A stretch of 59,778 bases of DNA, taken from contig JADFNO010000003.1 of the NCBI GenBank assembly GCA_022563315.1, positions 1 to 59,778 of the forward strand. Reading direction: 5' to 3'. Source of the stretch: Planctomycetota bacterium (GTDB taxonomy: Bacteria > Planctomycetota > Phycisphaerae > Phycisphaerales > SM1A02). Position numbers and translations under genes: made by a program. The notes beneath the pieces were generated by a model. That model did no database searches. It was not told the origin of the DNA and worked only from the letters and a program-made list of their open reading frames with translations. This document shows positions 28,764 to 35,524 of this stretch, in pieces. Within the stretch, counting starts at the first letter, position 1, and each line of letters starts with the position of its first letter.

Positions 28764-29261
28764 ATGGCCACGATTGCCAGTTTAGATCAGCGCACACGCC
28801 CGGCGCGCACCGGAAGATTGCGAGTTCTTGCCATCGCTTCCGGCGGCGGGCATTGGGTGCAGTTGCTGCGTTTACGACCCGCGCTGGCCGAGTGCGATGT
28901 CACCTACGTCAGTGTGGACAAGTGCTATCGAAGTGAAATCAGTCCTGCAAAGTTTCGCGTCGTTAACGATGCGACGCGACGAAACAAGATCGGCCTGGTG
29001 TTGCTGGCCATCCGCGTGGCGTGGATATTGGCCCGGGTCCGACCGGACACGATCGTGACGACCGGGGCTGCGCCCGGGTACTTTGCGGTCCGGCTTGGGA
29101 AACTCTTCGGGATGAAAACGATCTGGATCGACAGCATCGCCAACGTCGAGCGGTTGTCACTCTCAGGCAAGCAGGTGGAGCCCTACGCCGACCTTTGGTT
29201 GACGCAATGGTCTCATCTGGCCGGCGTCGGTGGACCGCGCTATGCAGGAGCCATGCTGTGA
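28764..29261 (+). CDS. Alg14-like glycosyltransferase accessory subunit
   Basis: 165 residues from the ATG at 28764, with GAGGA about 7 bp upstream. 'LRVLAIASGGGHWVQLLRLRPAL', 'RPDTIVTTGAAPGYFAVRLGKLFGMKTIWIDSIANVERLSLSGK' is the Alg14/PssD/EpsE-type pattern. The subunit corresponds to the N-terminal, acceptor-binding half of a GT-B glycosyltransferase and recruits the Alg13-like catalytic half encoded immediately downstream, with which its stop overlaps as GTGA. Such pairs add the second sugar to lipid-linked saccharides in several bacterial exopolysaccharide pathways. Confidence 0.9.
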   Translation: MATIASLDQRTRPARTGRLRVLAIASGGGHWVQLLRLRPALAECDVTYVSVDKCYRSEISPAKFRVVNDATRRNKIGLVLLAIRVAWILARVRPDTIVTTGAAPGYFAVRLGKLFGMKTIWIDSIANVERLSLSGKQVEPYADLWLTQWSHLAGVGGPRYAGAML

Positions 29262-29818
29262 TTTTCGTGACCGTGGGATCACAGATGCCGTTTGATCGCT
29301 TGATCCGGACGGTTGACGACTGGGCTGGCCGGCGCCAGGCGCCGCGGTTATTCGCGCAGATTGCCGGCGGTGACTATGTGCCCCGTCACATGCAGTGGCA
29401 GCGGTTCATTTCGCCTGCCGAGTACCGTCGGCGGATCTTCGAGTCAGAGTTGATTATCGCTCACGCCGGGATGGGGACCGTTCTCACGGCGCTCGAGTTC
29501 AGTCGGCCGCTGCTGGTGATGCCTCGCCGCGGCGGGTTTGGCGAGACCCGCAACGATCATCAGGTCGCCACCGCGGCTCGGTTGGCCGAGGCGGGATATG
29601 CCAGCGTGGCCATGAACGAGGACGAATTGATCGGACAGCTTGCCTCGCTTGATCAGGTCGCCGTGTCCAGTGCTATTGCCTCGCATGCCTCTGTTGAACT
29701 GCTTTCGGCGGTGCGGGACTTCATCTCCGGTGACGCCCAGCCGAGTCGTGATTCTGGTGTCCAGAGCCATCCGTTTCCAGCCGTCGGGGAGGAATTGGCG
29801 CATGCCAAGGCTGCTTGA
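29258..29818 (+). CDS. Alg13-like glycosyltransferase catalytic subunit
   Basis: 186 residues from the GTG at 29258 (4-bp overlap with the Alg14-like gene). The frame is open upstream but that part is out of register with any known family. 'MIFVTVGSQMPFDRLIRTVDDW' is the typical start, and 'ELIIAHAGMGTVLTALEFSRPLLVMPRRGGFGETRNDHQVATAARLAEAG' is the UDP-sugar-binding half of a GT-B fold, as in Alg13, PssE and the C-terminal half of MurG. Works with the upstream subunit to transfer a sugar on the cytoplasmic face. Confidence 0.9.
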   Translation: MIFVTVGSQMPFDRLIRTVDDWAGRRQAPRLFAQIAGGDYVPRHMQWQRFISPAEYRRRIFESELIIAHAGMGTVLTALEFSRPLLVMPRRGGFGETRNDHQVATAARLAEAGYASVAMNEDELIGQLASLDQVAVSSAIASHASVELLSAVRDFISGDAQPSRDSGVQSHPFPAVGEELAHAKAA

Positions 29819-32051
29819 ACAACCCGTGGCATCCGGCGAACGGATATTCGATGGCATCATCTGCTTCGGCGGCGAGGATTGGTGGTACCACAATCGAGGT
29901 CACTACGACATTCGGATGATGCGCGAACTGAGCAAGCGCGTTCCCGTGCTGTATGTAAACTCCCTCGGGATGCGAGCGCCCAATCCGCGCGAGGGCGCGA
30001 TGTTTGTTCGCCGGGTCTTGCGGAAGCTCGCCAGTCTCAGGCGAGGGTTCGTTCGCGTGGATGATCACTTCGGTGTTCTGAGCCCGATTTCTTTTCCCGG
30101 CGGGTGGAGCGCCGCCGTCACCAAGCGGTGGCTCACCAAGCGCGTCGTCGAGGCGGCCCAAGCCATGGACATCATGCGTCCGCTAATTTGGGTTGCCTGT
30201 CCGACCGCGGCCGGCGTGATTGATGCGATTGACCGGGCGGGGCTCGTCTATCAACGAACCGATCGTTATGAGTGCTACCCCGGCGTGCAGCCGAGCCGCA
30301 TCAAGGCGTTTGACGATCGTCTCAAAGCCGATGCTGATCTCACGGTCTTCTGTGGGGACTTTCTCTTCGAGCGCGAGTCGGCGCAATGTCGACAGGCCTG
30401 CCGGATCGACCATGGAATCGATTTCGAGCGCTTCGAGAACGCCGGTCGGCGACGAGGGGAGGAGCCGATCGACATCGTCGATCTTGGACGCCCGCGCGTG
30501 GGGTTCGTGGGCGGGATCGATGCTCACACGTTCGACGTGCGTCTCTTTGTCGAAACCGCCCAGCAGCTTCCCGAGATTCAGTTTGTTCTCGTCGGCGCAT
30601 GCTCTTTGCCGGCCGGTTGGTGCGAGCTGCCCAACGTCGCGCTGCTGGGCCAGAAGCCGCACGAGGAGGTGGCGGCTTATATGGCGGCGTGTGACGTGCT
30701 CATCATGCCGTGGCGGCGGAATCAGTGGATCCAGGCATGCAATCCGGTCAAGCTCAAGGAGTACCTGGCGGTTGGGCGACCCATCGTTTCAACCGACTTC
30801 ACGCAACTTCGCCGGTACGACAGTCAGGTTCGCGTCGCTTCCACACCGCAAACGTTTTGCGCAGAGATCCGTAGCGCACTATCTGATCCGGGAGACGAAA
30901 AGGCACGTCGAGCCCAGGTCGCCGACCAAGCTTGGAGCGGCGCTGCCGAGCGGTTGCTCGATGAACTGCACGTGATCGGACTGATTTCGGCCCACGGATC
31001 AAGAATCCCCAAGGACGATCAGGCGGATACGACTCCTCCAGCGACAGTTGGGCGGCTCCGTTTGGTCGGAGGTGACTGGTTTAATGCGACGAACAGTCGC
31101 CCAGGGCTACGCGCCTGTCTGGTGCTTGCCGGGGGATTGCGTCCCTCACCGCTGGTCGAGGCGGCCGGCCGATCGGTCCTGGATCTTTACCTCACACCAG
31201 AGAAGACCGTTCTGGATGTGATGGTCGAGCAACTGACGTTGCTGCCATCCTCGGACGGAATGCCTCTTGCGATCCGCGTCGTCTACAACGGCCGTCTCCC
31301 GGCTCCCTGGCCGGGGACCTCGGCTCCCAACGTGCGGTTCGAGCAAGACCCTCAAGCGTACCGCGGCGCTGCGGGCCTGGTCGCCGACCTCTGTGCCGGC
31401 TACGAGGACCACGAGCACGTTCTCGTCGTTGAGGCCGGCCGGGTCCTCGCCCGCGACGTCGAATCGATGTGGGACGAACATCTGGCCAGCGATGCAGACG
31501 TCACGGTCGGGTGCAATCAAGACGGCAGTCCAGGGGGAGTCTATATCACCAGGTGCGGCGTATTGCGCCATATCCCGCCGATCGGGTTTGTCGACATCAA
31601 GGAACAGTGGCTGGCCTCGGCAGGTGATCGGGGCGTGAAGGTTCGCGTGCACGGTTTTTCGAGCCCGGGAGCCCTCCCGCTGAGAACGCGGTCCGATTTT
31701 CTGGCCGCCGCGCGACATGTGAACAATCATGTTGCGTCACGTGCTTGCCGATCCATCGCCTCGCCGCCCGCGCAGGCTGCGGGGCTCGAGCCGTTTCGAG
31801 TCATCGGCCACGGCGCCGCCATCGGCCCCGATGTCCACATCAACGACGCCGTGATTATGCCCGCGGCCGTGATAGGCGGTGGGGCGTTGATTGAGCATTC
31901 CGTGGTCTGTCCCGGAGCCGTGATTGAGCCGAAACTTCGAGTCGTCAATGCGGTCGTGAGCAGAAGCGGATTCTATGTTGATCAGTTTGTAACAACCGCA
32001 TCGATCCCGGGGCTGTTCTCCGAATCGAACTTGCATGCCAAAGCAGCTTGA
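29802..32051 (+). CDS. Glycosyltransferase fused to degenerate sugar nucleotidyltransferase/beta-helix
   Basis: 749 residues from the ATG at 29802, which has GGGGAGGA about 10 bp upstream and overlaps the Alg13-like gene by 17 bp. Residues 1-395 are a GT-B glycosyltransferase resembling TuaH-type enzymes ('GGEDWWYHNRGHYDIRMMREL', 'RPRVGFVGGIDAHTFDVRLFVE', 'MPWRRNQWIQACNPVKLKEYLAVGRPIVSTD'). From about 425 a sugar-nucleotidyltransferase-like domain begins with 'ACLVLAGGLRPSPLVEAAGRSVLDL', lacking the GxGTRL signature that binds the nucleotide. The last 90 residues are hexapeptide-like ('VIMPAAVIGGGALIEHSVVCPGAVIEP'). The second half may be regulatory or structural rather than catalytic. This two-enzyme fusion is unusual. 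Confidence 0.8.
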   Translation: MPRLLEQPVASGERIFDGIICFGGEDWWYHNRGHYDIRMMRELSKRVPVLYVNSLGMRAPNPREGAMFVRRVLRKLASLRRGFVRVDDHFGVLSPISFPGGWSAAVTKRWLTKRVVEAAQAMDIMRPLIWVACPTAAGVIDAIDRAGLVYQRTDRYECYPGVQPSRIKAFDDRLKADADLTVFCGDFLFERESAQCRQACRIDHGIDFERFENAGRRRGEEPIDIVDLGRPRVGFVGGIDAHTFDVRLFVETAQQLPEIQFVLVGACSLPAGWCELPNVALLGQKPHEEVAAYMAACDVLIMPWRRNQWIQACNPVKLKEYLAVGRPIVSTDFTQLRRYDSQVRVASTPQTFCAEIRSALSDPGDEKARRAQVADQAWSGAAERLLDELHVIGLISAHGSRIPKDDQADTTPPATVGRLRLVGGDWFNATNSRPGLRACLVLAGGLRPSPLVEAAGRSVLDLYLTPEKTVLDVMVEQLTLLPSSDGMPLAIRVVYNGRLPAPWPGTSAPNVRFEQDPQAYRGAAGLVADLCAGYEDHEHVLVVEAGRVLARDVESMWDEHLASDADVTVGCNQDGSPGGVYITRCGVLRHIPPIGFVDIKEQWLASAGDRGVKVRVHGFSSPGALPLRTRSDFLAAARHVNNHVASRACRSIASPPAQAAGLEPFRVIGHGAAIGPDVHINDAVIMPAAVIGGGALIEHSVVCPGAVIEPKLRVVNAVVSRSGFYVDQFVTTASIPGLFSESNLHAKAA

Positions 32052-32078
32052 AGATCAAGCGTGAGGGAGAGGGTCGCC

Positions 32079-34382
32079 ATGAGCGAATCCACCCGAGATT
32101 ACATCCGGACGGAAACCGACGAACTTGTTGACGAACCGATCGACGCGCTGCGCGCCAATCCGCTGCAGACGATCCATCGGCAGTTGCGGGGGCGCTACCG
32201 CGTGGCGGTGCTGCTGGCCGTTCTGCTGGGCCTCTGCGGCGGTATCGCCGGCTTCGCGCTGTTCCCTGCGAAATATGAGAGCACGGGTCTGGTCCGGATT
32301 ACGCCGACGTTGCCTACCGTTCTCTACGAGAGTGCAGAGAACAAAATCCCGCCGATGTTCGAATCCTTCGTCACGACGCAGGCCGCCTTGATCCGCAGCC
32401 GGGAGCTCCTCCAAGACGCCTTGGACCAAGGCGGGCTGGTCGCGGCCGGTTGGGAGCCGGGGCCTGAAGGCGTCGCCCGTCTGCAAAGTGCTCTGGAAGC
32501 CAGGCGGAACCGCGGCGAACAGGTGATCTCGGTTCGCGTCACGCACACCGACCCGCGGCTCGCTCAGAGCGCGGTGAACGCGATCCTATCCACCTTTGTG
32601 GCGCGCGAAGACAACCGGTCCGGAATGGCGAGCTCGGCGCGCGAGGGCAAGCTTGTGGAACGCGCGGCGCAACTGGAAGAGGCGTTAGGCGACCTGAATG
32701 TGCAGATGCTCCGGGCTTCTGATCACATTGGGACCGACGCCGTTCAGCGCCAGCACACGGCCAAGCTTCACGAACTTGAGGTTCTTGAGAAGCAGCTTGC
32801 GGACCTTGCCCTGGCCAGCTCGGTGCTCGAGTTGCCCAACGGCGCCGAGAACAGCGCCAATGTCCTCGCAAACCTCGATCGCGTTCTGGGTATTCATATA
32901 GACGGGCAACTCGAAGATCTGCGACAACAAGAGGCCGAGCTGAAGGCCCGGATCGCCACGCTGAGCCGGAAGCTCAAGCCGAAGCATCCGGCGATGATCG
33001 AACAGCTGCGCCAGCTCGACGCGCTTCGGGTGCAGATGCGCCTGCGCGAGACGGAGCTCGCAAGCCAGCTTGGTGAAGTCGAATCTGCGAACGGGGTCGA
33101 CGCCGCGGTGGCCACGCCGAGGAATCGCATTCGCCGCGCAGAGTTCGTCTATCGATCGCTTCGTGATCAGGTGAGTGCAGAGGTCGCCACGCTAGGACAA
33201 ACGCGATCACAGTTGGCCGATCTCCGCGCCGAGTCCGAGAATGTGAAGTGGCGTCTGTATGAGGCACGGACACGCCTGGACCAGCTTCGAGTGGAGCAGG
33301 GCTTTGACAAGATGGCTCGAATCAGCGTTCTCGCTTTCGCCAATCTTCCCTTGGCGCCGGTGTCCGACAAACGTGCCGGCACCACGTTCATCGGGGTGAT
33401 GTTTGGCAGCGGGCTCGCTGTCGGGCTGATCGTCCTGTTCGGCTTGGCCGCTGCGCGATGCCGATTCGCCGAGGATCTGGACGTCTTCCAGGGCGAGGCG
33501 CCTGTCATCGGCGTCGTGCCGGACATTGCCGACGGTTCGCGTGACGCCAAGGCGCAGGCGGGCATCGTTGTGCATCAGATATGTAACGCCCTGTACGTGA
33601 ACTCGAGCCGTGATCTTCATCCGGTGTACGCCGTCACCAGTCCATCGTGCGGCGACGGCAAGACGAGCATCGCGCTGGCCATGGGCGCTTCGTTTGCCGC
33701 CGTTGGGTGCAAGACGCTCGTGGTCGACCTCGACCTCGTCGCCCAGGGACTGACTCGCCATTTGAAGCTCCAGACGAAGAACGGACTGTGTCAGGCGCTG
33801 GGTATGGCCGAGGGAGCCGGACAGGTGCACCGCACGATGACCTCCAATCTGTGGGTGCTGCCGACGGGTCGGCCCAAAGACATGCGGCCGCGGCAACTCT
33901 CGCCATCCAAACTCAAGTGGTTGATCGATGCCCTGCGGGCCAGGTTCGAGGTGATCGTGCTCGACACGGGACCGATACTGGAGAGTCTGGAGGCGCCGGC
34001 AGCGGTCGGGGCCGCGGACCAAACCGTGCTTATCACTGCCCGCGGCCGCAAGCTGGGCGACGTTCGAGCGGCGTTGGCGCGACTTCGGCAACTCCATGCG
34101 ACTTGTCAGGGGCTGGTGCTGAACCAGGCCGCGCCCGTGGATTGTACCCACGCGGCCGCCCTCAACTCGCGCACAAACGCCTGGGCCGAGCGGCCTTCGC
34201 TCCAAGCGGTCAGCGAGCAGCCGTCCTCGGCGCCGGCATCTGCCAAGAGAGATGGACCACAGTCGTCCAGCCCGCACGATCAAGGGCCCAAGAAGCCTCG
34301 CCTCCGTCTGACGCCCTCGCCTCTCGAGCAGGTGAAGGACCCAGCGGTTGAGGATGATCGACAAAGGAAACGAGCCGCCTGA
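32079..34382 (+). CDS. Wzc-type polysaccharide co-polymerase with BY-kinase domain
   Basis: 767 residues from the ATG at 32079 (GGGAGAGGG upstream). A Wzz domain starts with a membrane helix at about 45-70 (VAVLLAVLLGLCGGIAGFALF) and continues with a long coiled coil, about 190-400. A second helix at about 438-460 leads to the cytoplasmic bacterial tyrosine-kinase domain with Walker A 'SCGDGKTSIAL', Walker A' 'LVVDLDLVAQG' and Walker B 'VIVLDTGPI'. Proteins of this type control chain length and export. The usual C-terminal tyrosine cluster, the autophosphorylation site, is absent; the tail is Ser/Lys/Pro-rich instead. The gene follows the fusion glycosyltransferase by 27 bp. Confidence 0.93.
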   Translation: MSESTRDYIRTETDELVDEPIDALRANPLQTIHRQLRGRYRVAVLLAVLLGLCGGIAGFALFPAKYESTGLVRITPTLPTVLYESAENKIPPMFESFVTTQAALIRSRELLQDALDQGGLVAAGWEPGPEGVARLQSALEARRNRGEQVISVRVTHTDPRLAQSAVNAILSTFVAREDNRSGMASSAREGKLVERAAQLEEALGDLNVQMLRASDHIGTDAVQRQHTAKLHELEVLEKQLADLALASSVLELPNGAENSANVLANLDRVLGIHIDGQLEDLRQQEAELKARIATLSRKLKPKHPAMIEQLRQLDALRVQMRLRETELASQLGEVESANGVDAAVATPRNRIRRAEFVYRSLRDQVSAEVATLGQTRSQLADLRAESENVKWRLYEARTRLDQLRVEQGFDKMARISVLAFANLPLAPVSDKRAGTTFIGVMFGSGLAVGLIVLFGLAAARCRFAEDLDVFQGEAPVIGVVPDIADGSRDAKAQAGIVVHQICNALYVNSSRDLHPVYAVTSPSCGDGKTSIALAMGASFAAVGCKTLVVDLDLVAQGLTRHLKLQTKNGLCQALGMAEGAGQVHRTMTSNLWVLPTGRPKDMRPRQLSPSKLKWLIDALRARFEVIVLDTGPILESLEAPAAVGAADQTVLITARGRKLGDVRAALARLRQLHATCQGLVLNQAAPVDCTHAAALNSRTNAWAERPSLQAVSEQPSSAPASAKRDGPQSSSPHDQGPKKPRLRLTPSPLEQVKDPAVEDDRQRKRAA

Positions 34383-34411
34383 TTCGACGTTCCCGGGGGA
34401 GAATTGGATTG

Positions 34412-35524
34412 ATGAGGGATCACACTGCGCTCAGCGTCTACCAAGCCGTCAACGGCTCAGCCCTGAGTTCGATCATCGAGGAAACGCCAGACCGGCCGAT
34501 CACAATCGTCCATCGTGGGCGCGACGTCGCCGACCTCACGCATGCAACGTCGTTCCTTCTCGTCGCGTCGAGCGGTCCAGTCCCCTCTCGCAACGACCTT
34601 GCTCAGATGACTGCCGAGCCGCTTCGATCGCTCGCTCCGCGCATCTGGCAGATCAATCGACCTTCGCCTTCGTACCGCGAACGAGTCACCGCAGACGAGG
34701 CCAACGAGCTCATCTGCGTTCGGCGAGAATATGGACGTCCCGTCCTCGATACCGCCCCCATCATTCTTACCTCCGACCGGCAGATCGCCCAGCAATGGGC
34801 ACGCGCTCGTTCCGACCGGCAAGCGCGCCGTCAGCTTCAAAGGGCGGTCCATCAAGGGTCCGGCGCAGTCTTGCAAATGTCCCGACGCTTGCGACAGTGG
34901 ATCGGAACGTTCCGGGCCAAGCGGCTCTTCGACATCGCCTTCAGTCTGATAGCGCTGATCCTGACGGCCCCGTTGTACCCGATCGTGATGCTGGCCATCT
35001 GGCTCGAGGACGGGGCCCCGGTTTTCTTCGTGCATCGCCGCCAGTCGATCGGAGGTCAGGAGTTCGGCTGCATCAAGTTTCGTGTCATGCGCAGGGACGC
35101 TGAGCGAGTCAAAGCGGTCCTCGGCTCGCGGAACCGTTCGGACGGACCGCAGTTCTATTTGCCGGATGATCCGCGCCTGCTCAAAGTCGGTCGGTTCCTT
35201 CGACGCTGGAACATCGACGAACTGCCGCAGTTCATCAATATCCTGCTCGGCGACATGAGTGTCGTCGGCCCTCGCCCCAGCCCCGATCACGAGAACCAGT
35301 TCTGCCCGTCGTGGCGCGAGGCGCGCCTGAGCGTCCGGCCGGGATTGACCGGCCTGTGGCAGGTCTGCCGCACCCGCAAGCCTCAGGTCGATTTCCAAGA
35401 GTGGATCCGCTACGACTTGGAATATCTCGAGCACCGAACCTGGCTGCTCGATTTGTGGATCATCGTGCGGACGCCGTTGGCGATATTCGGAAACCCGGCT
35501 CGCGCAACCGGCGCATCGATGTAG
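34412..35524 (+). CDS. Polyprenyl-phosphate hexose-1-phosphate transferase (WbaP/ExoY type)
   Basis: 370 residues from the ATG at 34412 (a TTG precedes at 34409), with GGGGAGAA upstream. Residues 1-165 are an unrecognised soluble domain. From 'RAKRLFDIAFSLIALILTAPLYPIVMLAIWLEDGAPVFFVHRR' onwards it is the PglC-like bacterial sugar transferase domain, with one reentrant membrane helix, 'CIKFRVMRRDAE', 'DELPQFINILLGDMSVVGPRP' and 'RPGLTGLWQVC'. It transfers a sugar phosphate to undecaprenyl phosphate and thus initiates the repeat unit. It is the last gene of the locus. The extra N-terminal domain might be regulatory. Confidence 0.93.
   Translation: MRDHTALSVYQAVNGSALSSIIEETPDRPITIVHRGRDVADLTHATSFLLVASSGPVPSRNDLAQMTAEPLRSLAPRIWQINRPSPSYRERVTADEANELICVRREYGRPVLDTAPIILTSDRQIAQQWARARSDRQARRQLQRAVHQGSGAVLQMSRRLRQWIGTFRAKRLFDIAFSLIALILTAPLYPIVMLAIWLEDGAPVFFVHRRQSIGGQEFGCIKFRVMRRDAERVKAVLGSRNRSDGPQFYLPDDPRLLKVGRFLRRWNIDELPQFINILLGDMSVVGPRPSPDHENQFCPSWREARLSVRPGLTGLWQVCRTRKPQVDFQEWIRYDLEYLEHRTWLLDLWIIVRTPLAIFGNPARATGASM

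Follow-up and report, generated by a model that had tools for sequence, protein, structure and literature searches.

The open reading frame at 29802-32051 of the window (the whole stretch of 59,778 nucleotides analysed here; ATG at 29802, stop codon at 32049-32051) encodes a 749-aa fusion protein. In the account that we favour, at somewhat better than even confidence, its C-terminal half is an ancient, catalytically dead GDP-mannose-pyrophosphorylase (GMPP)-like pseudo-nucleotidyltransferase (psNT) that was reused as a cytoplasmic scaffold or regulator of a slime-polysaccharide (EPS) machine. The protein runs from a GT4 (TuaH-like) glycosyltransferase through a variable linker into the GMPP-like nucleotidyltransferase (NT) domain and ends in a left-handed beta-helix (Table 1). 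The glycosyltransferase half was assigned to GT4 by Pfam Glyco_trans_1_4 (PF13692; 46.4 bits against a cut-off of 27) and matched MshA and GumK in fold by Foldseek, while it scored 66 bits with the NCBIfam TuaH equivalog model (NF047676), below the cut-off of 550. The predicted model of the linker had pLDDT values below 50 at residues 399-433.

Table 1. Features of the fusion gene and its neighbours in the window.
Feature	Position	Strand	Basis
Alg14-like gene	28764..29261	+	Pfam Alg14; conserved neighbour
Presumed Alg13-like gene, 17-base overlap with fusion-gene start	29246..29818	+	Open frame; recurs beside Alg14-like in related loci
GT4 (GT-B fold, TuaH-like) glycosyltransferase half	29802..30989	+	Pfam, NCBIfam and Foldseek matches
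Disordered, fast-evolving linker (predicted)	30990..31100	+	pLDDT and dN/dS
Putative pseudo-nucleotidyltransferase (psNT) domain	31101..31736	+	AF2 model, GMPPB match
VLAGGLRPSPL in place of LAGGxGTRLxPL pyrophosphate loop	31122..31154	+	Family alignment; own-genome RmlA alignment
RGAAG loop, counterpart of LGTAG (nucleobase side)	31362..31376	+	Family conservation; HMM alignment
EAG at catalytic/metal Asp (NSD) site of active enzymes	31431..31439	+	Column residues; HMM alignment
DIKEQ in place of SIEKE segment (catalytic Glu195-Lys196 of GMPP)	31593..31607	+	Conservation; HMM alignment; PMC9168903
Predicted left-handed beta-helix (hexapeptide) domain	31791..31985	+	LbH_EIF2B sub-cut-off match; beta coils in model
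Wzc-like chain-length determinant / AAA protein	32061..34382	+	Neighbour scans
Initiating phosphoglycosyl transferase (PGT, WcaJ-type), shortened N-terminal domain	34409..35524	+	Bac_transf 196 bits; N-terminal profile match

On the C-terminal half of the window protein every Pfam and NCBIfam model stayed below its cut-off, and Pfam NTP_transferase gave no match. The NCBIfam glgC and man1P_GTase models matched it at about 35 bits, far under their cut-offs, and LbH_EIF2B matched the beta-helix region at about 30 bits, under a cut-off of 54. The AlphaFold (AF2) model of this half (pLDDT 87) found its best solved-structure match in human GMPPB (VIA Z 24.9 over 276 residues, 3.3 A), with AGPase and eIF2B at Z 19-22, and some bridging homologues did pass PF00483. 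Because of the sub-cut-off matches, the predicted GMPPB fold and these bridging homologues, the C-terminal half is read as an NT domain followed by a left-handed beta-helix, the architecture of GMPP/AGPase-type enzymes recovered by the AF2 model and the VIA/Foldseek matches. Within NCBIfam, the mannose-1-phosphate guanylyltransferase model NF052502 was the best or near-best NT match of the family (35 bits for the window protein, 105 bits for the free-standing member L115); these scores lie far under its cut-off of 440 bits, and psNT lacks the catalytic residues.

The C-terminal half opens with CLVLAGGLRPSPL (31116-31154). A sequence-only reading had proposed that the LAGGxGTRLxPL motif was replaced there while the domain and its hexapeptide tail were kept; both points were borne out, the latter by the structure prediction that it had called for. 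Across an alignment of 83 non-redundant family members, GxG[TS]RxxP occurred in none, and neither did EKP. When psNT was aligned with the genome's own RmlA, the metal/catalytic Asp and the catalytic Lys were absent from the residues listed at their columns. The phosphate loop, Lys, Asp and EKP that mark active sugar-1-phosphate nucleotidyltransferases of PF00483 are thus missing from psNT. The same draft genome carries four PF00483 NTs (a 258-aa RmlA type, a 362-aa GMPP-type frame, a 275-aa GlmU-like frame and a 514-aa frame), with intact motifs in the RmlA, GMPP-type and GlmU-like proteins. Among the divergent psNT members, which are fused to exosortase, fused to PGT or free-standing (L115), several matched PF00483, tying the family to true NTs, and all were without the catalytic set; the motif region reads LAGGLDTRRCPL in L115 and LAGGPGSVRMP in L106. 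Since the motif is lost in all 83 aligned members, its loss in the window is neither a sequencing error nor chance. As judged from the alignment, it is a trait of the whole family that is older than the GT4 fusion, so that a recent degeneration confined to the fusion is ruled out.

Relatives of the C-terminal half were found in 39 of the 61 genomes searched. By profile, psNT was detected in 132 of 301 genomes of the order and in 38 of the 392 genomes sampled from the phylum, a search restricted to Planctomycetota. The GT4 fusion was present in nine loci, and most other relatives were free-standing proteins of roughly 310-430 aa. These nine fusions form one clade (support 97/90), and a single origin of the GT4 fusion is read from the sequences. 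Two other fusions were encountered: psNT-exosortase in L107-L114, eight loci that belong to other families within the class or phylum, and psNT-PGT in one locus as a single 703-aa protein (L106:6568-8676), whose genome also carries a free psNT. The long exosortases of L153 and L154 had no psNT domain that we could find. In L045-L048 and L138, unfused GT4 genes were encoded close to psNT and in the same direction. The window's genome holds three psNT copies, of which the other two are unfused and lie in exosortase-Wzc loci (L060 and L061); a related-locus search of genome contigs returned only two near-copies, and two neighbours of 95% identity are the basis for taking the genome as Planctomycetota. 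The fusion is not present in all related loci, a question that the sequence-only reading had raised, and the canonical motif turned up in no homologue, fused or unfused. The idea in that reading, that a one-time enzyme has been retained in a regulatory or scaffolding role, is well supported at the level of sequence by the family-wide loss of catalytic elements, the purifying selection described below and the lack of a canonical-motif homologue, but it was too narrow, given that the loss predates the fusion, that most members are unfused, that three alternative fusions exist and that the context is one of EPS genes.

The window cluster is a Wzx/Wzy-type EPS locus. Upstream of the fusion gene lie genes for a Wzx flippase, a GT2, FemAB/GNAT and a deacetylase, and the Alg14-like gene with its partner, which we take to be Alg13-like from this pairing and general knowledge. 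Downstream, the Wzc-like and WcaJ-type PGT genes are accompanied by undecaprenyl-phosphate translocase-like and Polysacc_synt_2 (CapD-like) genes. To describe the context of the family, 65 loci were chosen from the match lists, partly by frame length and not by neighbours, and synteny was counted in the 60 loci that had over 4.5 kb of downstream sequence. Of these, 58 had a PGT near psNT, 53 a Wzc-like gene, 49 an exosortase and 37 EpsI, and the usual gene order was psNT, exosortase, EpsI, Wzc and PGT. No exosortase was seen beside the GT4-fused psNT in the seven loci read more widely, nor was EpsI found in GT4-fused loci. A phmmer search of the window with one exosortase query also found none, and the window was not classed as an exosortase-associated EPS locus. 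Exosortase was present in 294 of the 301 genomes of the order. Three GT4-exosortase-EpsI-Wzc loci (L151, L152 and L157) had no psNT that we found; together with the genome counts for psNT and exosortase, this indicates that psNT is not required for such loci. One Wzc-like protein (L054:12057-14534) carries a c-di-GMP-binding MshE-type domain (NF053729; 57 bits against a cut-off of 38), and export may be under c-di-GMP control.

The PGTs adjoining psNT (L054:14614-15402, L048:16040-16828 and others) share a conserved N-terminal domain with 46% mean column identity over 16 rows. When three of them were scanned with Pfam, Bac_transf was found in all, hexapeptide in two and nothing else. In the window PGT this domain is shortened, and the profile match spans residues 48-173 only. 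The N-terminal region of some PGT neighbours contains hexapeptide-like sequence, and the domain may be a diverged NT plus beta-helix. A first hhalign comparison with psNT gave P 0.13; the larger alignment gave P 7e-5 at 63% probability over 36 columns. This is suggestive at most, and the domain was not accepted as a proven relative of psNT. The hexapeptide-like sequence and the faint profile similarity prompt an attractive but weak idea, that psNT and the PGT might dock through their beta-helices.

Across homologues of the C-terminal half, several positions are fixed: both Gly of RGxxG (83/83) and, in DxKEQ, the D and E (83/83 each), with K in 73 and Q in 76 of the 83 rows. RGxxG aligns with LGTAG of GMPP in the HMM alignment. 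In VTC1, Gly85 contacts guanine (PMC9168903), and this residue would correspond to an RGxxG glycine of psNT; the nucleobase side of the pocket may therefore survive. DxKEQ aligns with the SIEKE segment of a GMPP, a weak stretch in which a one-residue shift is possible, and this segment holds the catalytic Glu195-Lys196 of VTC1 (PMC9168903). The psNT family reads K-E where GMPP has E-K, and under either alignment register the catalytic Lys is lost. In comparison with two sister species, dN/dS was 0.24-0.31 for the NT domain, 0.20-0.25 for the glycosyltransferase half and 0.61 for 50 codons of the linker, all rough values from few substitutions. The NT domain is, on these estimates, under purifying selection much like that on its GT partner, with a relaxed linker.

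That the C-terminal half is a decaying remnant, baggage on a working glycosyltransferase, would fit the loss of every catalytic residue. Nevertheless, decay is rejected on the dN/dS values, with constraint close to that on the GT half beside a relaxed linker, and the fixed positions and the synteny across many families speak against it as well; we regard it as highly improbable. An altered enzymatic activity may still be compatible with the sequence. The active-site-like conservation of D, E and both Gly, invariant in 83 rows, could suggest that the D-x-K-E-Q and RGxxG positions serve a newly gained catalytic activity, although these residues may equally be structural, and such an activity would have to work without the metal Asp, the catalytic Lys and the phosphate loop. 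An acyltransferase is unlikely because we noticed no His conserved throughout the aligned beta-helices. We consider a new activity decidedly improbable, if less so than decay.

A less remote, though still unlikely, alternative is that psNT is an allosteric subunit of the GMPPA/GlgD type, which would bind a sugar nucleotide and control an active pyrophosphorylase, matching donor supply to EPS synthesis. The nearest analogues of psNT are GMPPA and KJC. GMPPA is the human non-catalytic GDP-mannose pyrophosphorylase subunit that regulates active GMPP (PMC11228364, PMC9168903), acting as a feedback inhibitor of GMPPB (PMC11228364). GMPPA and plant KONJAC1/2 share with psNT the GMPP-like NT domain and the left-handed beta-helix, and psNT combines lost catalytic residues with a kept nucleobase-side RGxxG loop. 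However, GMPPA and KONJAC1/2 pair with an active GMPP paralogue, whereas psNT occurs with PGT, Wzc-like and exosortase genes; unlike them, it forms fusions with GT4, exosortase or PGT, has no EKP, the sugar-binding element, and reads DxKEQ where GMPP has SIEKE. Among the four PF00483 NTs of the window's genome, which is a draft, no unambiguous GMPPB- or GlgC-like partner carrying a beta-helix was recognised. Non-catalytic or regulatory members also exist in the GlgD/ADP-glucose pyrophosphorylase large subunit and eIF2B gamma and epsilon families, which share the fold of psNT but belong to other pathways and have no close sequence relation to it (about 19 bits for GlgD).

The retention of psNT across the phylum beside EPS initiation and export genes, together with its three different fusion partners, makes a role as regulator or scaffold probable and debris improbable. 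Dead GMPP-type subunits have precedents in GMPPA (PMC11228364) and KJC/GMPPA (PMC9168903). In such a role, psNT would act in the cytoplasm as a subunit without catalysis of its own and would hold or tune the complex for EPS initiation and export; its beta-helix would serve for docking, perhaps onto the N-terminal part of the adjacent PGT. The remade NT pocket could be a dead scaffold or a sensor of a putative nucleotide or nucleotide-sugar ligand; both this ligand and the interaction partners are ones that we infer. In the window lineage, the gene fusion would tie psNT covalently to a GT4 enzyme that is encoded near psNT in some other loci. A more specific version, which we put forward as possible yet rather doubtful, makes psNT, as a phylum-wide and so far undescribed family, a core cytoplasmic subunit of the Planctomycetota exosortase-associated EPS machine, with its beta-helix docked on what would be a second, still more decayed NT and beta-helix domain in the initiating PGT and the kept base-binding loop sensing a nucleotide.

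The psNT loci resemble the exosortase/EpsH-associated EPS loci of the PEP-CTERM system, with EpsH exosortase, EpsI, a chain-length protein and a sugar transferase (PMC1569441). The parts of that account available to us do not mention a psNT component and report EpsI as without known function; the window's own locus differs in showing no exosortase. In titles and abstracts of the open-access literature, no paper was found that describes the psNT family, including under exosortase-nucleotidyltransferase in Planctomycetes or bacterial polysaccharide pseudoenzyme nucleotidyltransferases. Catalytically dead pyrophosphorylase subunits have been known chiefly from pairings with live paralogues, and psNT seems to have been reused in bacterial EPS loci with exosortase and the initiating PGT. 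The three alternative fusions provide testable guesses on protein contacts in these loci and offer a handle on the control of EPS initiation in Planctomycetota.
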